DNA from: Thalassospira sp.
GTDB lineage: Bacteria > Pseudomonadota > Alphaproteobacteria > Rhodospirillales > Thalassospiraceae
Assembly (NCBI RefSeq): GCF_002709775.1
Contig: NZ_PAQR01000008.1
Coordinates: 1-64,000 of the forward strand
DNA: 64,000 nucleotides
Direction of reading: 5' to 3'
Below the pieces are notes generated by a model. That model was given only the letters and a program-made list of their open reading frames with translations, did no database searches and was not told where the DNA came from. Below are positions 1,522 through 10,255 of this stretch, piece after piece. Numbering within the stretch: the first letter of the stretch is position 1; every line of letters begins with the position of its first letter. The translations under genes and the position numbers were made by a program.

Positions 1522-2304
1522 TTACTGCGCCGTCCAGCCACCATCGACCGAAAGGTGCGTGCCGGTCATTTGTGATGCGGCGTCTGAGCACAGGAAGAGG
1601 GCTGTCTGACCGATTTGTTCGGGGCTTACGAACTGTTTGGACGGGTGTTTGTCCGAAACAAGGCGGGTTGCAGATTCCTCGACCGAGATGTTGTTTTCCT
1701 TCGCGCGCGCCTCGATCTGGCGTTCGACCAGTTCGGTGCGCACCCAGCCCGGGCAGATGGCATTGGCCGTGATGCCGGTTTCAGCCGTCTCAAGCGCTGT
1801 CACCTTGGTCAGTCCGATCACGCCATGCTTGGCTGCGACATAGGCGGCCTTCTGGACCGATGCGACAAGGCCGTGGGCCGATGCCGTGTTGATGATGCGG
1901 CCCCAGTTTTTTTGGCGCATATAGGGCACGGCAAGGCGGGTGGTGTGGAAGACCGATGACAGGTTGATCGCAATCACTGCGTCCCACTTTTCAGGCGGGA
2001 ACTCTTCGACATTGGCGGTGTATTGGATGCCGGCATTGTTGATCAGGATGTCGACGCCGCCAAACTTGGCTTCGGCGTCCTTCATCATCGCTTCGATCTC
2101 GTCCGGTTTGGACAGGTCGGCACCGTTATAGTGCGCGGTGACACCGTAATCGGTTTCAAGGCCCTTGCGGGTTGCCTCGATCTCATCAGCATCGCCAAAG
2201 CCATTGAGCATCACATCCGCACCAGCGCCCGCAAGTGCCTTGGCCATGGCAAGGCCGATCCCGCTGGTTGAGCCGGTGACGAGTGCGCGTTTACCTGTCA
2301 GCAT
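1522..2304 (-). CDS. bdhA: 3-hydroxybutyrate dehydrogenase (SDR family)
   Basis: A 260-residue short-chain dehydrogenase. The NAD site TGSTSGIG is at residues 10-17, NNAG at 89-92, and the catalytic set is Ser142, Tyr155 and Lys159 (Y-V-A-A-K). These positions, the length and the segment SAHGLVAS match bacterial D-3-hydroxybutyrate dehydrogenases, which interconvert 3-hydroxybutyrate and acetoacetate in the polyhydroxybutyrate/ketone-body cycle in the cytoplasm. The C-terminal GTHLSVDGGWTAQ is also typical. The gene lies 109 bp downstream of the TyrR-like gene on the same strand, with only a small dyad (2325-2340) between them, so cotranscription is possible. A GGGAG site precedes the ATG. 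Confidence 0.95.
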   Translation of the reverse strand: MLTGKRALVTGSTSGIGLAMAKALAGAGADVMLNGFGDADEIEATRKGLETDYGVTAHYNGADLSKPDEIEAMMKDAEAKFGGVDILINNAGIQYTANVEEFPPEKWDAVIAINLSSVFHTTRLAVPYMRQKNWGRIINTASAHGLVASVQKAAYVAAKHGVIGLTKVTALETAETGITANAICPGWVRTELVERQIEARAKENNISVEESATRLVSDKHPSKQFVSPEQIGQTALFLCSDAASQMTGTHLSVDGGWTAQ

Positions 2305-2413: not shown

Positions 2414-4039
2414 TTAGTTCCCGATACCGTATTTGCGCAGTTTGTTGGCGATTGAGGTATGTGAAACGCCCAGCCGATCGGCCAGTTTGCGCGAGCTTGG
2501 ATAATCCGGATAAAGTCGTGCGAGCATTTCACGTTCGAGCAAATCCATGCCGCTGTTGAAATCGCTTTGCGCGAGCGCGGTGGCGATCAGGTCGGGGGGC
2601 TCGGTTGTTTGGGTGGGGGTGTCTTGCACGGTATCGGATGTGCTCTGTGCCGGGGCTTCTGATGTGCGGGCGGTGCCGCTGGCAGCATCGGCGAGGTCGC
2701 GCGCACCAAGCGTGTTGCCATCCAGAAGGGCGACGGCGCGAAACAGGGTGTTTTCAAGTTCGCGCACATTGCCCGGCCAGTCATGGGCGCAGAGCCAGTC
2801 AAGCCCGTCACGCGCCAGGCGTGGTGTGCTGCGTTCGGTCTGCTGGGCGGTGCGGTCGATGAAAAAGGCAGCCAGATCGGCAATGTCTTCGACCCGATCA
2901 CGCAAGGGCGGCAGGGTGATGCCAAGAACGTTGAGGCGGAAATAAAGATCCTCGCGAAAGGTGCCGTCATGCGACATAGCTTCAAGATCGCGGTTGGTCG
3001 CACTGATGATGCGGACATCAACGGTGATTTCATCCGTGCCGCCCACACGCCGGAAGCGGCCATCCTGCAGCACGCGCAGAAGCTTTGCCTGCAGATACGG
3101 GGTCAGTTCTCCGATCTCATCAAGGAACAAAGTACCGCCATCGGCCAGTTCCAGAAGCCCCGGCTTGCCGCCGCGACGCGCCGACGTAAAGGCCCCGGCG
3201 GCGTAACCAAACAGCTCGCTTTCAGCCAGACCTTCGGGCATGGCGGCACAGTTAAGGGCGAGAAACGGTTGATCTGCGCGTGCGCTTGCGCGGTGACAGG
3301 CGCGGGCAAACAGCTCCTTGCCAGTGCCGGTTTCGCCCAGGATCAGGATCGGGGCATCAATGGCCGCCAGACGTTCGGCCTGTGATTTGACGCGCAGCAT
3401 CGCGCGGCTGGTGCCGATAATGTCGTCAAAGCCGGTATGGCTGCGATCCTGAAGGGCGGTGATCACGCGCCCCAATCGGGCCGGGCGGTGAAAGACCATC
3501 ACCCCGCCCCAAGGGGCATCATCGGCACTATCGGATCCGTCATCGACATGACCGATTGGTTCGACCTGCAAAAGATAGGTTTGCCCGCCCAGCGTGACTT
3601 CGCGTTCCGGCAGGTGAAAGCCGCCTTGGCGTAAATCTTCAATGGATGGTTCAACAAGAATGCTCGCAATATCCTGATCACGCAGAGGTTTTTCAGGGGT
3701 GGCTGAAATCGCCTGTGCGGCCGGGTTAGCCTGCGCGATCAGGCCGTTGGCATCGACCGCAATCACCGGATCGCCAAGGGCGGCGAGGGTTGCGTGCAAC
3801 TGTGCGCGACGGCGTTCGGTCGGCAGGCGGTCGATTTCGGTAATGTCGAAAATACCGGGAATTTGTTTGAGCGCGTGCGACAGAAGCAGAAAGCGTTCCG
3901 GGCGCACGGCGGGAATATCGGCATAGATATGATGGGTGGTGACTTCAAAAGCACGGATGTCCAGGCCCTGATCAGTCAGGACATTAATCACGTCGCGCGT
4001 AATGCCAAGCCTGTTTTCACCGCGAATTTCAAACCGCAT
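2414..4039 (-). CDS. TyrR/PhhR-like regulator with ACT, PAS, sigma-54-type AAA+ and HTH domains
   Basis: From the ATG at 4039 the protein is 541 residues and begins MRFEIRGENRLGITRDVINV, the ACT-domain start of TyrR; the open frame extends 31 codons further upstream but through the operator region, so the shorter start is chosen. Domains in order: ACT (about 1-75), PAS (about 80-190), AAA+ ATPase with Walker A GETGTGKE and Walker B GGTLFLDEIGE, and a Fis/TyrR HTH at the C-terminus (KLADRLGVSHTSIANKLRKY). The sigma-54 contact loop reads GAFTSA, one residue from the canonical GAFTGA; E. coli TyrR lacks this loop entirely. Family members bind aromatic amino acids and TGTAAA-N6-TTTACA boxes. Three such boxes lie in the divergent spacer. 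Likely target: the methionine gamma-lyase gene, plus itself. Confidence 0.9.
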   Translation of the reverse strand: MRFEIRGENRLGITRDVINVLTDQGLDIRAFEVTTHHIYADIPAVRPERFLLLSHALKQIPGIFDITEIDRLPTERRRAQLHATLAALGDPVIAVDANGLIAQANPAAQAISATPEKPLRDQDIASILVEPSIEDLRQGGFHLPEREVTLGGQTYLLQVEPIGHVDDGSDSADDAPWGGVMVFHRPARLGRVITALQDRSHTGFDDIIGTSRAMLRVKSQAERLAAIDAPILILGETGTGKELFARACHRASARADQPFLALNCAAMPEGLAESELFGYAAGAFTSARRGGKPGLLELADGGTLFLDEIGELTPYLQAKLLRVLQDGRFRRVGGTDEITVDVRIISATNRDLEAMSHDGTFREDLYFRLNVLGITLPPLRDRVEDIADLAAFFIDRTAQQTERSTPRLARDGLDWLCAHDWPGNVRELENTLFRAVALLDGNTLGARDLADAASGTARTSEAPAQSTSDTVQDTPTQTTEPPDLIATALAQSDFNSGMDLLEREMLARLYPDYPSSRKLADRLGVSHTSIANKLRKYGIGN

Positions 4040-4042
4040 AAC

Positions 4043-4079
4043 TGTACCGATAAATTTACACTGTAAGATAAAATATACA
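4043..4079. promoter_or_regulatory. Two imperfect TyrR boxes at the 5' end of the TyrR-like gene
   Basis: TGTACC-GATAAA-TTTACA (4043-4060) and TGTAAG-ATAAAA-TATACA (4062-4079) each match the TGTAAA-N6-TTTACA consensus at 10 of 12 fixed positions. They lie immediately upstream of the ATG at 4039, overlapping its ribosome site, a position suited to autorepression. Confidence 0.7.
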
Positions 4080-4137
4080 GTTTTAAGCTTCTGAAATCCA
4101 GCGTCTTTGACATGTGCGGCGTTGGAATGCACCAGAG

Positions 4138-4155
4138 TGTAAATAAAAATTTACA
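4138..4155. promoter_or_regulatory. Perfect TyrR box, upstream activating site for the gamma-lyase gene
   Basis: TGTAAATAAAAATTTACA matches the TyrR/PhhR consensus TGTAAA-N6-TTTACA at every fixed position. Its centre is about 88 bp upstream of the transcription start predicted from the sigma-54 promoter at 4209-4223, a normal enhancer distance for bacterial enhancer-binding proteins. Confidence 0.85.
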
Positions 4156-4208
4156 CCATCAAATCAGACAGTTTCGCCAAACTCTTGAAAGCAAACAATT
4201 TTTAAATC

Positions 4209-4223
4209 TGGCACGGTGCTTGC
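4209..4223 (+). promoter_or_regulatory. Sigma-54 (-24/-12) promoter of the methionine gamma-lyase gene
   Basis: TGGCACGGTGCTTGC fits the consensus TGGCACG-N4-TTGC exactly, with the -24 GG at 4210-4211 and the -12 GC at 4222-4223. Transcription would start near 4235, about 30 bp before the ATG at 4265. A sigma-54 promoter needs an AAA+ activator; the divergent TyrR-like protein is the obvious candidate. Confidence 0.87.
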
Positions 4224-4264
4224 GGTGATGTAGGCAGAATAAACGCATTTCAAGGAGCCTTCCG

Positions 4265-5491
4265 ATGTCTGCTCATGATAAACACAACAGTGCCAAAACC
4301 GGTTTTGCCACCCGTGCGATCCATCACGGTTACGATCCGCAAAGCCATAATGGCGCACTGAACCCGCCGGTTTACATGTCTTCGACCTTTGCGTTCGAAA
4401 CAGCCGAGCAGGGCGGGCGGTTCTTTGCCGGTGACGAGCAGGGCTTTATCTATTCGCGTATCGCCAACCCGACGCTGGATCTTCTCGAAAAGCGTTTGGC
4501 CGTGCTTGAAGGCGGTGAAGCTGCAGTTGCGACCGCATCGGGCATGGGCGCGATTACGTCGGTCTTCTGGACCTTTATCGAGCCGGGTGACGAGATCATT
4601 GTTGATCGCACGCTGTATGGCTGCACATTTGCCTATTTCCGTCATGGTCTGGAAAAGTTCGGCATCAAGCACACCCATGTCGATCTGACCGATCCGGCGG
4701 AACTGGAAAAGGCGATCTCGGATCAGACCAAGATTGTCTATTTCGAAACCCCGGCCAACCCGAACATGCGTCTGGTTGATATAGAAGCCGTCTCCGAAAT
4801 CGCGCACAAGCATGGGGCGAAGGTCGTTGTCGATAACACCTATTGCACGCCCTATCTGCAGCGCCCGATTGAGCTTGGGGCCGATATCGTTGTGCATTCC
4901 GCGACCAAGTATCTTGGCGGCCATGGCGATCTGATGGCTGGTGCGGTGATCGGAACGCTTGAAGACATGACGCAGGTGCGTCTGGTCGGGTTGAAGGACA
5001 TGACCGGTGCGGTCCTGTCGGCACAGGATGCCAACCTTGTGATGCGCGGTCTTAAAACGCTTGAGCTTCGCATGGAACGCCATTGCGACAATGCCGAAAA
5101 GATCGCCGATTTCCTCGCCAAACATCCGAAGGTCGAGAAGGTCTTCTATCCGGGGCTTGAAAGCGATCCGCACCACAAGCTTGCCAAAAAACAGATGGAC
5201 CGGTTTGGAGGCATGATCGCGTTTGAGCTTAAGGGCGGCATCGAGGAAGGCCGTAAACTGATGAACGGGCTTAACATGATCACCCGCGCGGTCAGCCTTG
5301 GCGATGCGGAAACCCTGATCCAGCATCCGGCATCGATGACCCATTCAACCTATACCGCCGAAGAACGCGCGGAATATCAGATCACCGATGGCCTGATCCG
5401 CCTGTCGGCCGGGCTTGAAAGCATCGGTGATATTCTGGCGGATCTGTCGAATGCGCTTGATCGTGATCAGATGGCGATTGCGGCCGAGTAA
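4265..5491 (+). CDS. megL: L-methionine gamma-lyase (PLP enzyme)
   Basis: A 408-residue Cys/Met-metabolism PLP enzyme. The protein aligns with Pseudomonas putida methionine gamma-lyase with a constant offset of 4: Tyr63 and Arg65 (phosphate contacts), Tyr118, the diagnostic Cys120, Asp190, the PLP lysine Lys215 in SATKYLGGHGD, and Lys244-Asp245. The active-site cysteine in TLYGCTF distinguishes methionine gamma-lyases from cystathionine gamma-lyases and gamma-synthases. The enzyme splits methionine into methanethiol, ammonia and 2-oxobutyrate in the cytoplasm. An AAGGAG site lies 7 nt before the ATG. It is monocistronic as far as can be seen, driven by a sigma-54 promoter and TyrR box. The MdeB-type gene at 7071 would handle its 2-oxobutyrate product. 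Confidence 0.94.
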   Translation: MSAHDKHNSAKTGFATRAIHHGYDPQSHNGALNPPVYMSSTFAFETAEQGGRFFAGDEQGFIYSRIANPTLDLLEKRLAVLEGGEAAVATASGMGAITSVFWTFIEPGDEIIVDRTLYGCTFAYFRHGLEKFGIKHTHVDLTDPAELEKAISDQTKIVYFETPANPNMRLVDIEAVSEIAHKHGAKVVVDNTYCTPYLQRPIELGADIVVHSATKYLGGHGDLMAGAVIGTLEDMTQVRLVGLKDMTGAVLSAQDANLVMRGLKTLELRMERHCDNAEKIADFLAKHPKVEKVFYPGLESDPHHKLAKKQMDRFGGMIAFELKGGIEEGRKLMNGLNMITRAVSLGDAETLIQHPASMTHSTYTAEERAEYQITDGLIRLSAGLESIGDILADLSNALDRDQMAIAAE

Positions 5492-5582: not shown

Positions 5583-6485
5583 TTAGTCGTAGATGCCGTA
5601 TTGCCGCAGCGCTTCTGTCGATTGAGGCGTGATCTTGTCATTGCGGATGCGGAAAACCCGGATGTCGCGCAGCTTGATGTTCTGGAAGGACGGGGCGGTT
5701 TCCCAGTTGGTTTTCAAAAGGTCAAACAGCAGGCCGTTGGAATAGGCACGCTTTAATCCGGCCTCGATCGCATCGCGCAGGCGGGGTTCATTGGGGCTGA
5801 AAAAGAAATAGATCGGCTGGGGATAATAAAGCGCGATTTCCGGCGCAATCACGATGCCCTTGGCCTGTTCCTTCATCCAGTTCCATTCAGCATGAATTTG
5901 CCAATAGGCCCGCGGATACAGATCAAACCGGTTGGCCGCCAACATCCGGTGCAACGTGGCATAGCGCCCGACCGCAACCGAAAAACCGTTATCTTCCAGG
6001 ATGGCATTATCTGGCCAGCCAAGCCCCTGACCCATGGAGAATTTTTGCAAATCTTCGACCGATTGCACATCCGAAAGATCATCCAGCATGTCTTCGCGCG
6101 TCATGAACAGTCGCACGCCGGTCGTGCCAAGATAGATCGGCACATAGGCGGGCAGCAGAACCTCTTCACGTTTGGCGTTGGTACCAAAGAAGACGGTGTT
6201 GATTTCCTTGCCGGCCTGAAGCATCGGAATGCGGCGTTCCTCGGTCGGGTAATCCATGCAGATCGGGGTAATCGTGATGTCTTCGCTGCTCAGGCGTGCG
6301 GCAAGGCGCAAAAGATCAACATGATATTCCGAATACTGATCCCAGGCGACTTTGCGTTGGCAGTAATCGGATCCGACATCCATCGGCAGTTTGACGACAA
6401 GCGCGTCCGACCGGTTCTGGGCGATTGCCATGTTTGAAACACCCACCAGCATCAGCATCGCGACCACAAGAACGCGCGCAAGCAT
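5583..6485 (-). CDS. Periplasmic solute-binding protein (SBP family 3-like), orphan
   Basis: From the ATG at 6485 the protein is 300 residues and starts with a clear signal peptide: a hydrophobic run LARVLVVAMLMLVGV with probable cleavage after AIA. The open frame extends to a TTG at 6662, but that would bury the signal peptide behind 59 charged residues; neither start has a good ribosome site. The mature part resembles amino-acid-type SBP family 3 domains (DMYPRAYW-like segment RFDLYPRAYW, and the C-terminal AIEAGLKRAYSNGLLFDLLK typical of this fold). No permease or ATPase is adjacent, so it could feed a distant transporter or act as a sensor. Convergent with megL. A link to methionine or another sulfur compound is only suggested by location. 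Confidence 0.7.
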   Translation of the reverse strand: MLARVLVVAMLMLVGVSNMAIAQNRSDALVVKLPMDVGSDYCQRKVAWDQYSEYHVDLLRLAARLSSEDITITPICMDYPTEERRIPMLQAGKEINTVFFGTNAKREEVLLPAYVPIYLGTTGVRLFMTREDMLDDLSDVQSVEDLQKFSMGQGLGWPDNAILEDNGFSVAVGRYATLHRMLAANRFDLYPRAYWQIHAEWNWMKEQAKGIVIAPEIALYYPQPIYFFFSPNEPRLRDAIEAGLKRAYSNGLLFDLLKTNWETAPSFQNIKLRDIRVFRIRNDKITPQSTEALRQYGIYD

Positions 6486-7070: not shown

Positions 7071-9455
7071 ATGTCAGCACAAGAAGCCGCACCGGAAATC
7101 GGTGAAATCATCGAAGCAAGCAGCACCGGCAACATCAATGCCAAGGACCTTGAGATGCTCGGTCTGCTTGAAAAGAAAGTGCGCTGGCTTTCAAGCTGGA
7201 CAATCCATAACGCCAACCATCTGCGCCCCAAGCGCGACGGCATCAAGGTTGGCGGCCATCAGGCCAGCTGTGCGTCGATGACGACCCTTATGACGGCGCT
7301 TTATTTCAATGTTCTGCGCCCGCAGGACCGGGTGGCGGTCAAGCCGCATGCAAGCCCGGTCTTTCATGCGATCAATTACCTGTTTGGCCGCCAGACCAAG
7401 GAAAAGCTTGAAAGCTTCCGCTCCTTTGGTGGGGCGCAATCCTATCCGTCGCGGACCAAGGATGGTGATCAGGTTGATTTCTCGACCGGTTCTGTTGGCC
7501 TTGGTGCGGCGGTGACGAACTTTGCAGCCCTCACACAGGATTACCTGCGCTACAAGGACATGCTGCCCAAGGGCGAAACACCTGGTCGCATGGTTGCCCT
7601 TGTCGGGGATGCCGAACTTGATGAAGGCAATATCTATGAGGCGCTGCTTGATACCTGGAAACATGACATTCGCAATGTCTGGTGGGTGATCGATTATAAC
7701 CGCCAAAGCCTTGATGGTATGATTGATGCCCATCTGTTCCGTGTCATTGGCCGGTTCTTCCGCGCGGTCGGCTGGAACGTGATCACCATCAAATATGGCC
7801 GCAAGCTGCATGATGCCTTTGCCAAGCCGGGCGGCAAGTCACTGAAAAAGTGGCTGAACGACGTGCCGAACGACATCTATTCCGCGCTGACCTTCCAGGG
7901 CGGCGCAGCATGGCGCAAACAGATTACCTCCGACATGCCCGGCGACAACGCGCTGGCAGATCTTCTGGGGCAGTATGACGATGATGCCTTGCATGATCTG
8001 ATGACCAATCTGGGTGGGCATTGCATGGAAGCGGTGCTGAGCGCCTTTGACGCAGTTCCCAATGACAAGCCGACCGTCTTTATCGCCTATACCGTCAAAG
8101 GGTATGGCACGCCGCTTCAGGGGCACAAGGACAACCATGCGGGCCTGATGAATGTGCCGCAAATGGACGCCTTCAAGCTGCAGAACAAGGTCGCCGACGG
8201 GCAGGAATGGGATATCGCAGCTGGCCTTGATATCAGTGCAGATGCACTTCGCGATTACATTGCCAAGGCACCGTTTAACGATGATGCCCCGCGCAACAAG
8301 TCGGCCAAGCACATCACCATTCCCGACATGCCCTATGCACGGACGGAAACATCAAGCACGCAGGAAGTCTTTGGCAAGGTTCTGAATGAACTGGCCAAGA
8401 TGAAGAACAGTGATCTTTCTGATCGAATTGTCACGACCTCGCCCGACGTGACGGTCTCGACCAACCTTGGCGGCTTTGTGAACCAGCGCGGTCTGTTTGG
8501 CCGCGAAGAACTGGCCGATGAGTTCAAGGAACGCAAGGTCCCCTCGGCCCAGAAATGGATCCGCTCCCCAAGCGGCCAGCATGTCGAGCTCGGCATTGCC
8601 GAAAACAACCTGTTCCTCAATCTCGCCGCCCTTGGCCTGTCGCACAGCCTGTTTGGCGAGCGCCTGTTTCCGATCGGCACGCTTTATGATCCGTTCATTG
8701 CGCGCGGTCTCGATGCGTTGAATTACGCGTGCTATCAGGATGCGCGTTTCATGGTCGTGGCAACACCAAGCGGCATTACGCTGGCGCCGGAAGGCGGGGC
8801 GCATCAGTCGATATCAACCCCGATGATCGGCATGGGCCAGCCGGGCCTGACCAGTTTTGAGCCAAGCTTTGGGGATGAACTGGCGGCCATCATGGGCTGG
8901 TCGTTTGACCATATGCAGGACCCGGAAGGTGGCTCGATCTACCTGCGTTTGTCGACCAAGCCGCTGTCGCAGCCGGAACGTGACCTGTCAGAAACGCAAA
9001 AGACCGAAATTATTTCGGGTGGATACTGGCTGCGCCAGCCGGGCGAGGATTGCAAGATGGCGATTGCCTATTGCGGTGCCATGGCGCCTGAAGCAATTGC
9101 CGCCTGGGAAAAGCTTTCCGAAGACCATCCGGGCTTGGGCCTGCTGGCTGTCACCTCGACCGATCGCCTTTACAATGAATGGCAGGATCTCGAACGTGCT
9201 CGTCTTGAGGGCAAGGCCGATGGCAAGATGTCGCATGTGGAAAACCTGCTCAAACCACTCGCCCCGGATGCCCGCCTTGTCACGGTGATCGACGGCCACC
9301 CGGCCGCCCTTGCATGGCTTGGCGGTGTGCGCGGTCACGCGGTCGCACCGCTTGGCGTCAATGCCTTTGGCCAGTGCGGCGACAGCATCGCCCTTTACGA
9401 TCACTACCAGATCGGCACCGAGGCCATCCTGCGCGCGGCGAAGCGTTGGGACTGA
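7071..9455 (+). CDS. mdeB: Homodimeric 2-oxoacid dehydrogenase E1 (MdeB / AceE-like; probable 2-oxobutyrate dehydrogenase E1)
   Basis: A 794-residue thiamine diphosphate enzyme of the transketolase/AceE superfamily. The TPP-magnesium motif is the segment VGDAELDEGNIYEALLDTW...DYNRQSLDG (G-D-x-E-x-x-E-G-N then N); the N-terminal GGHQASCASMTTLMTALYF and the C-terminal domain GHPAALAWLGGVRGHAVAPL are typical of single-chain E1 proteins. It is shorter than E. coli AceE (about 887). In Pseudomonas putida the mdeB gene, next to methionine gamma-lyase, encodes such an E1 with preference for 2-oxobutyrate. Here megL lies 1.6 kb upstream, which supports that role, but pyruvate dehydrogenase E1 activity cannot be excluded from sequence alone. 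E2 and E3 partners are not in the window. Confidence 0.8.
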   Translation: MSAQEAAPEIGEIIEASSTGNINAKDLEMLGLLEKKVRWLSSWTIHNANHLRPKRDGIKVGGHQASCASMTTLMTALYFNVLRPQDRVAVKPHASPVFHAINYLFGRQTKEKLESFRSFGGAQSYPSRTKDGDQVDFSTGSVGLGAAVTNFAALTQDYLRYKDMLPKGETPGRMVALVGDAELDEGNIYEALLDTWKHDIRNVWWVIDYNRQSLDGMIDAHLFRVIGRFFRAVGWNVITIKYGRKLHDAFAKPGGKSLKKWLNDVPNDIYSALTFQGGAAWRKQITSDMPGDNALADLLGQYDDDALHDLMTNLGGHCMEAVLSAFDAVPNDKPTVFIAYTVKGYGTPLQGHKDNHAGLMNVPQMDAFKLQNKVADGQEWDIAAGLDISADALRDYIAKAPFNDDAPRNKSAKHITIPDMPYARTETSSTQEVFGKVLNELAKMKNSDLSDRIVTTSPDVTVSTNLGGFVNQRGLFGREELADEFKERKVPSAQKWIRSPSGQHVELGIAENNLFLNLAALGLSHSLFGERLFPIGTLYDPFIARGLDALNYACYQDARFMVVATPSGITLAPEGGAHQSISTPMIGMGQPGLTSFEPSFGDELAAIMGWSFDHMQDPEGGSIYLRLSTKPLSQPERDLSETQKTEIISGGYWLRQPGEDCKMAIAYCGAMAPEAIAAWEKLSEDHPGLGLLAVTSTDRLYNEWQDLERARLEGKADGKMSHVENLLKPLAPDARLVTVIDGHPAALAWLGGVRGHAVAPLGVNAFGQCGDSIALYDHYQIGTEAILRAAKRWD

Positions 9456-9526: not shown

Positions 9527-10255
9527 TCAGAAAAACGCCTGTTTCACACCATCAATGATGAACTGGACGGCCAATGCGGCCAGGATCATGCCAAGCAGGC
9601 GCGATACGACGGTGGCGACCGTCGGGCTGAGGCGTTTGGCAACGACGTTTGCCAGCAGGAAGAAGACAAAGGCGATCACCATCACGACGGCGACAACGCC
9701 AATCACGCTGGCCTGCATGGCGATATTGTCTTCGAATTTGCCCATCAAAAGCATCACGGATGCGATGGCACCGGGACCTGACAGGAACGGGATCGACATC
9801 GGGAAGATCGAGATATCGTCGGCCTCGTCATCGGGGATGGTCGGGCCGTCTGCGGTTTTGGTGGCGGGTTTCTTGGCTTTGGCCTTGGCGGTTTTTGCGG
9901 CCTTTTCCGCCTCGTGGTCTTCTTCGAGTTCCTGATGGACCTGTTCGGCGCGCTCGTTACGTTTTTGGCTGCGTTTTTCAAACAGCATCTCAAGCGCGAT
10001 CAAAAACAGCAACGTGCCCCCGGCAATCCGGAAGGCGGGCATATGAATGCCAAACACACCCAGCAACCCTTCACCGATCAGGGCAAAGGCCGCGAGGATA
10101 AAGAAGCTGGTCAAGCAGGCCCGGATTGCCATGCGCCGACGATGGGCGGCACTTGTGCCCTGGGTCAGGACGATAAAGACCGGTACCAGACCCAGCGGGT
10201 CAATGATCACGAACAGGGTGACAAAGACCGGGATCAGTTCATTAAGCATTGGCAT
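9527..10255 (-). CDS. MarC-family (NAAT) integral membrane protein
   Basis: A 242-residue membrane protein. The N-terminal segment FVTLFVIIDPLGLVPVFIVL and the later FPMSIPFLSGPGAIASVML are signature stretches of the MarC family, which has six transmembrane helices. Its function remains uncertain; the old link to multiple antibiotic resistance was withdrawn. The family is usually near 210 residues. The extra length here is a charged insertion at about residues 90-140 (many Lys, Ala, Glu: for example KAAKTAKAKAKKPATK) between helices 3 and 4, probably a cytoplasmic loop. It stands alone between terminators, convergent with the E1 gene. Confidence 0.85.
   Translation of the reverse strand: MPMLNELIPVFVTLFVIIDPLGLVPVFIVLTQGTSAAHRRRMAIRACLTSFFILAAFALIGEGLLGVFGIHMPAFRIAGGTLLFLIALEMLFEKRSQKRNERAEQVHQELEEDHEAEKAAKTAKAKAKKPATKTADGPTIPDDEADDISIFPMSIPFLSGPGAIASVMLLMGKFEDNIAMQASVIGVVAVVMVIAFVFFLLANVVAKRLSPTVATVVSRLLGMILAALAVQFIIDGVKQAFF

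Follow-up and report, generated by a model that had tools for sequence, protein, structure and literature searches.

Within the window (the whole 64,000-nucleotide stretch of Thalassospira sp. DNA that was analysed), a gap of 225 bp (4039 to 4265) parts a minus-strand regulator gene (2414..4039, encoding 541 aa) from a plus-strand gene for methionine gamma-lyase (megL, also called mdeA; 4265..5491, 408 aa). The enzyme is identified by two NCBIfam equivalog models, both above their cut-offs: NF005695 (714.3 bits; cut-off 666) and TIGR01328 (620.5 bits; cut-off 549.7). The product of the other gene has the domain order of TyrR-like enhancer-binding proteins (ACT, PAS, AAA+ and a TyrR-type HTH): the Pfam families PAS, Sigma54_activat and HTH_50 match above cut-off, ACT matches at 19.7 bits (under its cut-off of 27), residues 1–170 align with the Escherichia coli TyrR structure 2jhe (E 3e-18) and 41 residues near the C-terminus match structure 1g2h (HTH). 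Like other enhancer-binding proteins of the sigma-54 type it has Walker motifs (GETGTGKE and LFLDE) and a GAFTGA loop, here GAFTSA, a variant at position 5. The top NCBIfam model for this protein is TyrR (NF008085), but the score of 469.9 bits (417.4 for the main stretch) is below the curated cut-off of 576; the regulator is therefore not an equivalog of enterobacterial TyrR. We placed its start at the ATG at 4039. The GTG at 4132, given by a mechanical list of open reading frames, was rejected because residue 1 counted from ATG 4039 corresponds to residue 1 of E. coli TyrR, and because some relatives have gaps of 2–3 bases just upstream of this ATG.

Three TyrR-type boxes and one promoter element can be read in the gap. 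Ahead of the regulator start lies a tandem pair of near-boxes, TGTACCGATAAATTTACA at 4043..4060 and TGTAAGATAAAATATACA at 4062..4079, spaced 19 bp apart, both of which keep TGTA-N10-TACA. The third box (TGTAAATAAAAATTTACA; 4138..4155) is an exact TGTAAA-N6-TTTACA and the promoter-proximal putative enhancer site. Downstream of it, on the plus strand, is an exact -24/-12 element of sigma-54 promoters, TGGCACG-N4-TTGC (TGGCACGGTGCTTGC; 4209..4223), supported by direct reading and by a consensus count. From the position of the -12 half, the megL transcript would start at 4234..4236 (+), with the centre of the third box at about -88, and AAGGAG at 4252..4257 (+) is the likely ribosome-binding site of megL (a GGAG-type sequence is found here in the aligned loci of the genus). 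A first-pass annotation, made from the letters alone, had pointed out the exact box, the promoter consensus and the two near-boxes within 4043–4079, and direct reading confirms all three. The gap thus appears to carry the TGTA(A)-type 18-bp boxes that mark targets of TyrR-like enhancer-binding proteins; the promoter is of the type that sigma-54 activators act on, and the genome encodes one RpoN, above its family cut-off.

The arrangement is kept throughout the genus. At E<=1e-90 the regulator was detected in 30 out of 60 genomes: the own genome, 28 congeners and one outgroup (G050). None of the 29 genus genomes searched has lost the gene pair, the promoter or recognisable boxes, and megL is divergent from the regulator in 29 of the 29 loci (in one, G015, the regulator is split across contigs). 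The third box is exact in 22 loci and off by one or two positions in the other seven; boxes 1 and 2 have the full TGTA-N10-TACA in part of the genus loci only, and the half TTTACA of box 1 (4055–4060) is invariant in 29/29. The start-to-start distance between the third box and the -24 element is 71 bp in 22 of the 29 loci, 72 bp in four, 73 bp in two and 60 bp in one.

The loop of the regulator also recurs. Where the fetched piece of a genus regulator includes the loop, it reads GAFTSA in 28 out of 28 cases; piece two of the split regulator has it too, and so do the megL-linked regulators of G571, G525, G463 and G431, each with a -24/-12 element before megL. Other forms occur elsewhere: GAFSGA in G227, G228 and one of two homologues in G366 (G366b), GAFEGA in PhhR of Pseudomonas aeruginosa, and no loop in E. 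coli TyrR. Both the reading GAFTSA and the absence of the loop from the E. coli protein had been noted in the first-pass annotation and agree with the translated sequence and the alignment, respectively; the comparison of loops among related regulators, which it had suggested as a check, found GAFTSA to be fixed within Thalassospira and present in four further genera whose regulator is linked to megL. Serine at position 5 of the loop is given only as a 'putative' functional variant in PMC3162934, and NorR with serine at that position is described as active without its signal and still partly regulated (PMC2941729). The word GAFTSA had no match in the papers searched, which were mostly open-access ones. 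As a -24/-12 element lies before megL beside every GAFTSA regulator examined, the comparison argues that the loop is functional.

Outside the genus, 13 homologous proteins turned up in searches of 317 genomes of the order (E<=1e-100) and 385 genomes of the class (E<=1e-90). By genomic context they fall into two kinds: seven are divergent to megL (G571, G525, G463, G431, one of the two in G366, G227 and G228) and six are beside dadA (G660, G221, G050, G151, G209 and the other one in G366). A gene for Alr precedes dadA in G660, G221, G050 and G151; none was found in the dadA locus of G209 or the dadA-linked locus of G366. TyrR-type boxes and a -24/-12 element lie ahead of the target in 13 out of 13 of these loci, some with altered promoters (e.g. 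TGGCCCG or CTGC): the match to the -24/-12 pattern is weakest in G431 (9 of 11 positions) and reaches 10 of 11 in six others from outside the genus. In G227 the megL promoter (L132:3281-3310) has TGGCACGGAGA/TGGCACGGTTCCTGC in duplicate, so that the -24 half forms a short tandem repeat. Matches to the regulator were also found in 86 plasmid records; among the loci examined in eight of those listed (H9, which had no annotation, was left aside), Azoarcus sp. KH32C and four named Azospirillum plasmids carry the dadA form of the locus. In a tree of 31 regulators (including 12 of the 29 genus rows and leaving out H3 and H4), one branch with 100/100 support splits the megL-linked from the dadA-linked rows, not counting three ungrouped rows (PhhR, E. 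coli TyrR and the Polaromonas homologue H8). The dadA-linked regulators group in a single clade. The megL-linked rows fall outside it, and the tree does not resolve them into a second one. An open fork joins G463, G431, the Polaromonas row, the group of G366b, G227 and G228, the dadA clade and the group with Thalassospira, so the megL-linked regulators may not be a clade; the tree program flagged long branches (G463, G431, G571, PhhR and E. coli TyrR among them) and warned and of uneven composition for G571. Eleven positions separate the two groups, six of them (7, 9, 27, 29, 36 and 61) within the ACT region (residues 1–61); this excess has a hypergeometric P of 5e-4, to be read in the light of the relatedness of the rows, whose shared ancestry also makes the counts across loci non-independent.

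These features suggest a local activator switch, in which the TyrR-like protein drives megL through the sigma-54 promoter. The same design recurs in relatives belonging to several other bacterial families. The regulator would bind the three 18-bp sites (the 19-bp-spaced pair and the exact box ∼88 bp before the start) and, once its N-terminal ACT/PAS sensor is occupied, would assemble its AAA+ ring; the boxes would act as an enhancer, brought by DNA looping to the sigma-54 polymerase at 4209–4223, and the GAFTSA loop would remodel this waiting polymerase, so that transcription starts near 4235 and methionine gamma-lyase is made. We regard such a switch as highly probable. Its elements had already been put together in the first-pass annotation as a TyrR-like regulator acting through TyrR-type boxes at a sigma-54 promoter of megL, which is now supported by 29 out of 29 genus loci, seven megL loci of other genera and the single RpoN.

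Could the motifs be chance matches in an intergenic stretch that is AT-rich around the boxes? Genome-wide the motif is not enriched: in the own assembly (4.24 Mb and 93% complete, so that genome-wide counts could miss sites) TGTA-N10-TACA has nine sites against 40 for a reversed control pattern. But three of the nine lie inside this one stretch of 113 bp, so that the enrichment is in this gap only; the exact box has one site in the assembly, and the exact sigma-54 consensus has eight against two for its reversed pattern. When the 29 genus loci are aligned, no variation is seen in 26 of the 37 columns of the core motifs, compared with 5 of the remaining 156 columns of the gap (P about 1e-18 by Fisher's test, a guide only, as the core columns were chosen by us and the rows are related). 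On these genome counts and the footprint in the genus we rejected chance, whose probability is close to negligible. It is also very improbable that the regulator acts as E. coli TyrR does, whose targets have sigma-70 promoters (PMC1173090), and that the -24/-12 match is a coincidence: TGGCA and TTGCG are invariant in 29/29 genus loci at a fixed spacing and recur in other genera, the loop is kept, and a consensus scan of 4000–4300 found no sigma-70-like promoter. That scan bears likewise on the claim, made in the first-pass annotation, that the regulator represses itself, with the near-box pair at 4043–4079 serving mainly as its own operator. The pair does lie directly before the regulator start codon in the 29 genus loci (4–40 bp in the window), and its start-to-start spacing is 19 bp in all 29 and in 15 out of 16 others examined (13 homologues and three named; the exception is G571, with 16 bp). 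However, in the four co-directional loci (G050, G151, G209 and G221), where the regulator is upstream of dadA, the pair follows the regulator stop codon in 4/4 with the 19-bp spacing, although its second member is weak in G050 and G151 (matching only 6 and 7 of 10 positions). There the pair cannot sit on the regulator promoter and, judged by position, cannot be a self-operator; its persistence suggests that the three boxes together are to be read as an enhancer. The claim of self-repression is thereby weakened, and a mainly self-regulatory role of the pair is unlikely; negative autoregulation in the divergent loci is possible as a by-product of the enhancer pair. We also looked at the helical phasing between the last box and the -24 element in 18 loci: R was 0.52 at 10.5 bp and higher at 11 and 11.5 bp, with wrong automatic box picks for G525, G209 and Azoarcus KH32C. 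After correction by hand, seven selected distances away from ∼70 bp fall in a 4-bp arc of the 10.5-bp turn (P about 0.03), a post hoc and weak result on selected data that we do not rely on.

The alternative that deserves most attention accepts the sigma-54 activator and differs in its signal: not methionine, but perhaps alanine or some other hydrophobic amino acid, a D-amino acid or a 2-oxo acid, megL being one of the responses. Every row retains R10 of E. coli TyrR, one of two ligand-binding positions of that protein, which points to a partly shared pocket; the other, D103, is not conserved in the rows, but its loss says little because it is absent from PhhR as well. In related regulators the linked gene is dadA, in many cases accompanied by alr, and the TyrR of Azospirillum brasilense controls dadA and the use of D-alanine (PMC6375630). 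Furthermore, in G228 and G227 (L206 and L207), which have a megL-type regulator, megL is followed on its own strand by dadA, at a distance of about 3 and 1 kb, respectively. Against this, the ACT-region positions split cleanly between megL- and dadA-linked regulators, and contig C12, which holds the best dadA homologue of the own genome, yielded no TGTA-N10-TACA site. A non-methionine signal is a possibility to be taken seriously, if not one that we would expect. The clean difference in the ACT region would favour a changed ligand, without naming it; we infer methionine, or a breakdown product of it such as 2-oxobutyrate, as the signal. A bolder reading, slightly less likely than not, is that Alphaproteobacteria have methionine-dedicated, TyrR-derived sigma-54 activators whose ACT domains have changed relative to the D-alanine-type clade, and of which the GAFTSA subset may have a raised basal activity.

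Exact boxes away from megL were searched for in nine genus genomes and the outgroup G042. The genus genomes have eight other sites on seven loci (two sites in G007, three in G018, one in G024 and two in G027), and G042 has no exact match. By blastn (1e-10), the flanks of these seven loci align neither among themselves nor with the six further TGTA-N10-TACA loci in the own genome. On this comparison of flanking sequences we rejected a wider regulon, though the regulator may have a second target. Two loose sigma-54-like matches occur near such boxes, one in L179 and one in L115 beside the box pair of G027; both are inside long open frames, as is the box in L176. The pair in G027 (L115:1501-1562) consists of two exact TyrR boxes 44 bp apart.

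The regulator was not found beside every megL. Among 15 other genomes of the order with megL at E<=1e-130, 13 have no such regulator in the fetched stretch around megL (three of the 13 stretches break off close to the megL start, two within 400 bp of it and one within 1.5 kb). In four of the 13 (G085, G285, G288 and G289) a divergent Lrp/AsnC regulator is next to megL instead, and no sigma-54 element was found by the pattern used within 300 bp of megL. With 13 loci showing no TyrR-like regulator in the fetched stretch and four of them carrying Lrp/AsnC in its place, control of methionine gamma-lyase seems to have been exchanged between regulator families.

In Pseudomonas putida the local regulator of methionine gamma-lyase is MdeR, which is of the Lrp type and belongs to a protein family unrelated to that of the Thalassospira regulator. 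PhhR of P. aeruginosa is, like the latter, a TyrR homologue divergent beside its catabolic target (phhA), though it differs in its aromatic target and in its loop. For PhhR a sigma-54 promoter is stated (PMC1173090). Also close by description is the TyrR of A. brasilense (PMC6375630): a TyrR-like protein with a described sigma-54 loop, three TyrR boxes, a -12/-24 region beside the target and a non-aromatic amino acid target. It is required for the dadA transcript, and sigma-54 activation has been proposed (PMC6375630); its target is D-amino acid dehydrogenase and not methionine gamma-lyase, and the likeness is one of description. In four other named Azospirillum the regulator is divergent from dadA, and the two of these placed in our tree fall in the dadA clade. 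GcsR of P. aeruginosa (PMC4894688) is another TyrR-like enhancer-binding protein with three 18-bp sites and an RpoN promoter, concerned with a non-aromatic amino acid (glycine); again likened by description and not by sequence, it differs in its target operon and in the box centre (TGTAACG-N4-CGTTCCG; PMC4894688). Methionine gamma-lyase itself has been brought under TyrR control in the predicted regulon of Shewanella, which is unlike the present case in being wide, with many catabolic genes, and predicted only (PMC5343134). In Clostridiales a predicted sigma-54 activator of mdeA (mdeA-metT), also called MdeR, is assigned a site among TGT and ACA repeats 10–12 bp apart (PMC6615313); this is a Firmicute protein, 'TyrR' is absent from the main text of that paper, and the likeness is by description and not by sequence. 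The novelty that the first-pass annotation saw in coupling TyrR to methionine catabolism was therefore overstated, given the Shewanella and Clostridiales predictions. For each separate part of the design there are earlier published predictions or data: TyrR with mdeA, sigma-54 with mdeA, and TyrR with dadA. No paper that joins a TyrR-type regulator, sigma-54 and methionine gamma-lyase was found among the matches listed, in a search of mostly open-access papers.

One sensor-activator scaffold may thus be re-aimed at different substrates: aromatic amino acids (PhhR), glycine (GcsR), D-alanine (Azospirillum TyrR) and, here, methionine. With so few positions behind the clean split between megL- and dadA-linked regulators, a change of ligand in a TyrR-type ACT domain can be tested directly. 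The loop variant GAFTSA, fixed beside conserved -24/-12 promoters, is in turn a natural test of a form listed as no more than putative in PMC3162934. It is also a natural version of the substitution that loosens signal control in NorR and, if this holds, the basal activity of the switch may be raised. Control of megL in Thalassospira also has some ecological bearing, because methionine gamma-lyase makes methanethiol, a marine sulfur compound.

Several neighbours of the gene pair may be mentioned. Downstream of the regulator is a gene of the 3-hydroxybutyrate dehydrogenase type (1522-2304, minus strand), which is near the regulator in 18 out of 19 loci (the contig ends in the remaining one). 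Downstream of megL, an AceE/transketolase-like E1 protein (7071-9455, plus strand; TIGR00759 at 187.8 bits against a cut-off of 859.9) is encoded in 18 out of 19 Thalassospira-type loci (the contig of the remaining one ends), and its gene adjoins megL in G525, G085, G034 and G285; it may be the E1 component of an MdeB-like 2-oxobutyrate dehydrogenase, presumably comparable to MdeB of P. putida. Between megL and the E1 gene lies a gene for a fast-evolving protein without a Pfam family (5583-6422, minus strand): it was not found in three of the 19 loci, and in 15 of the 16 loci having it the identity is 53–64%, compared with about 79% or more for the neighbouring genes. Finally, the family match of a MarC-family membrane protein (9527-10255, minus strand) falls in two stretches, which suggests that this protein carries an insertion in its middle.
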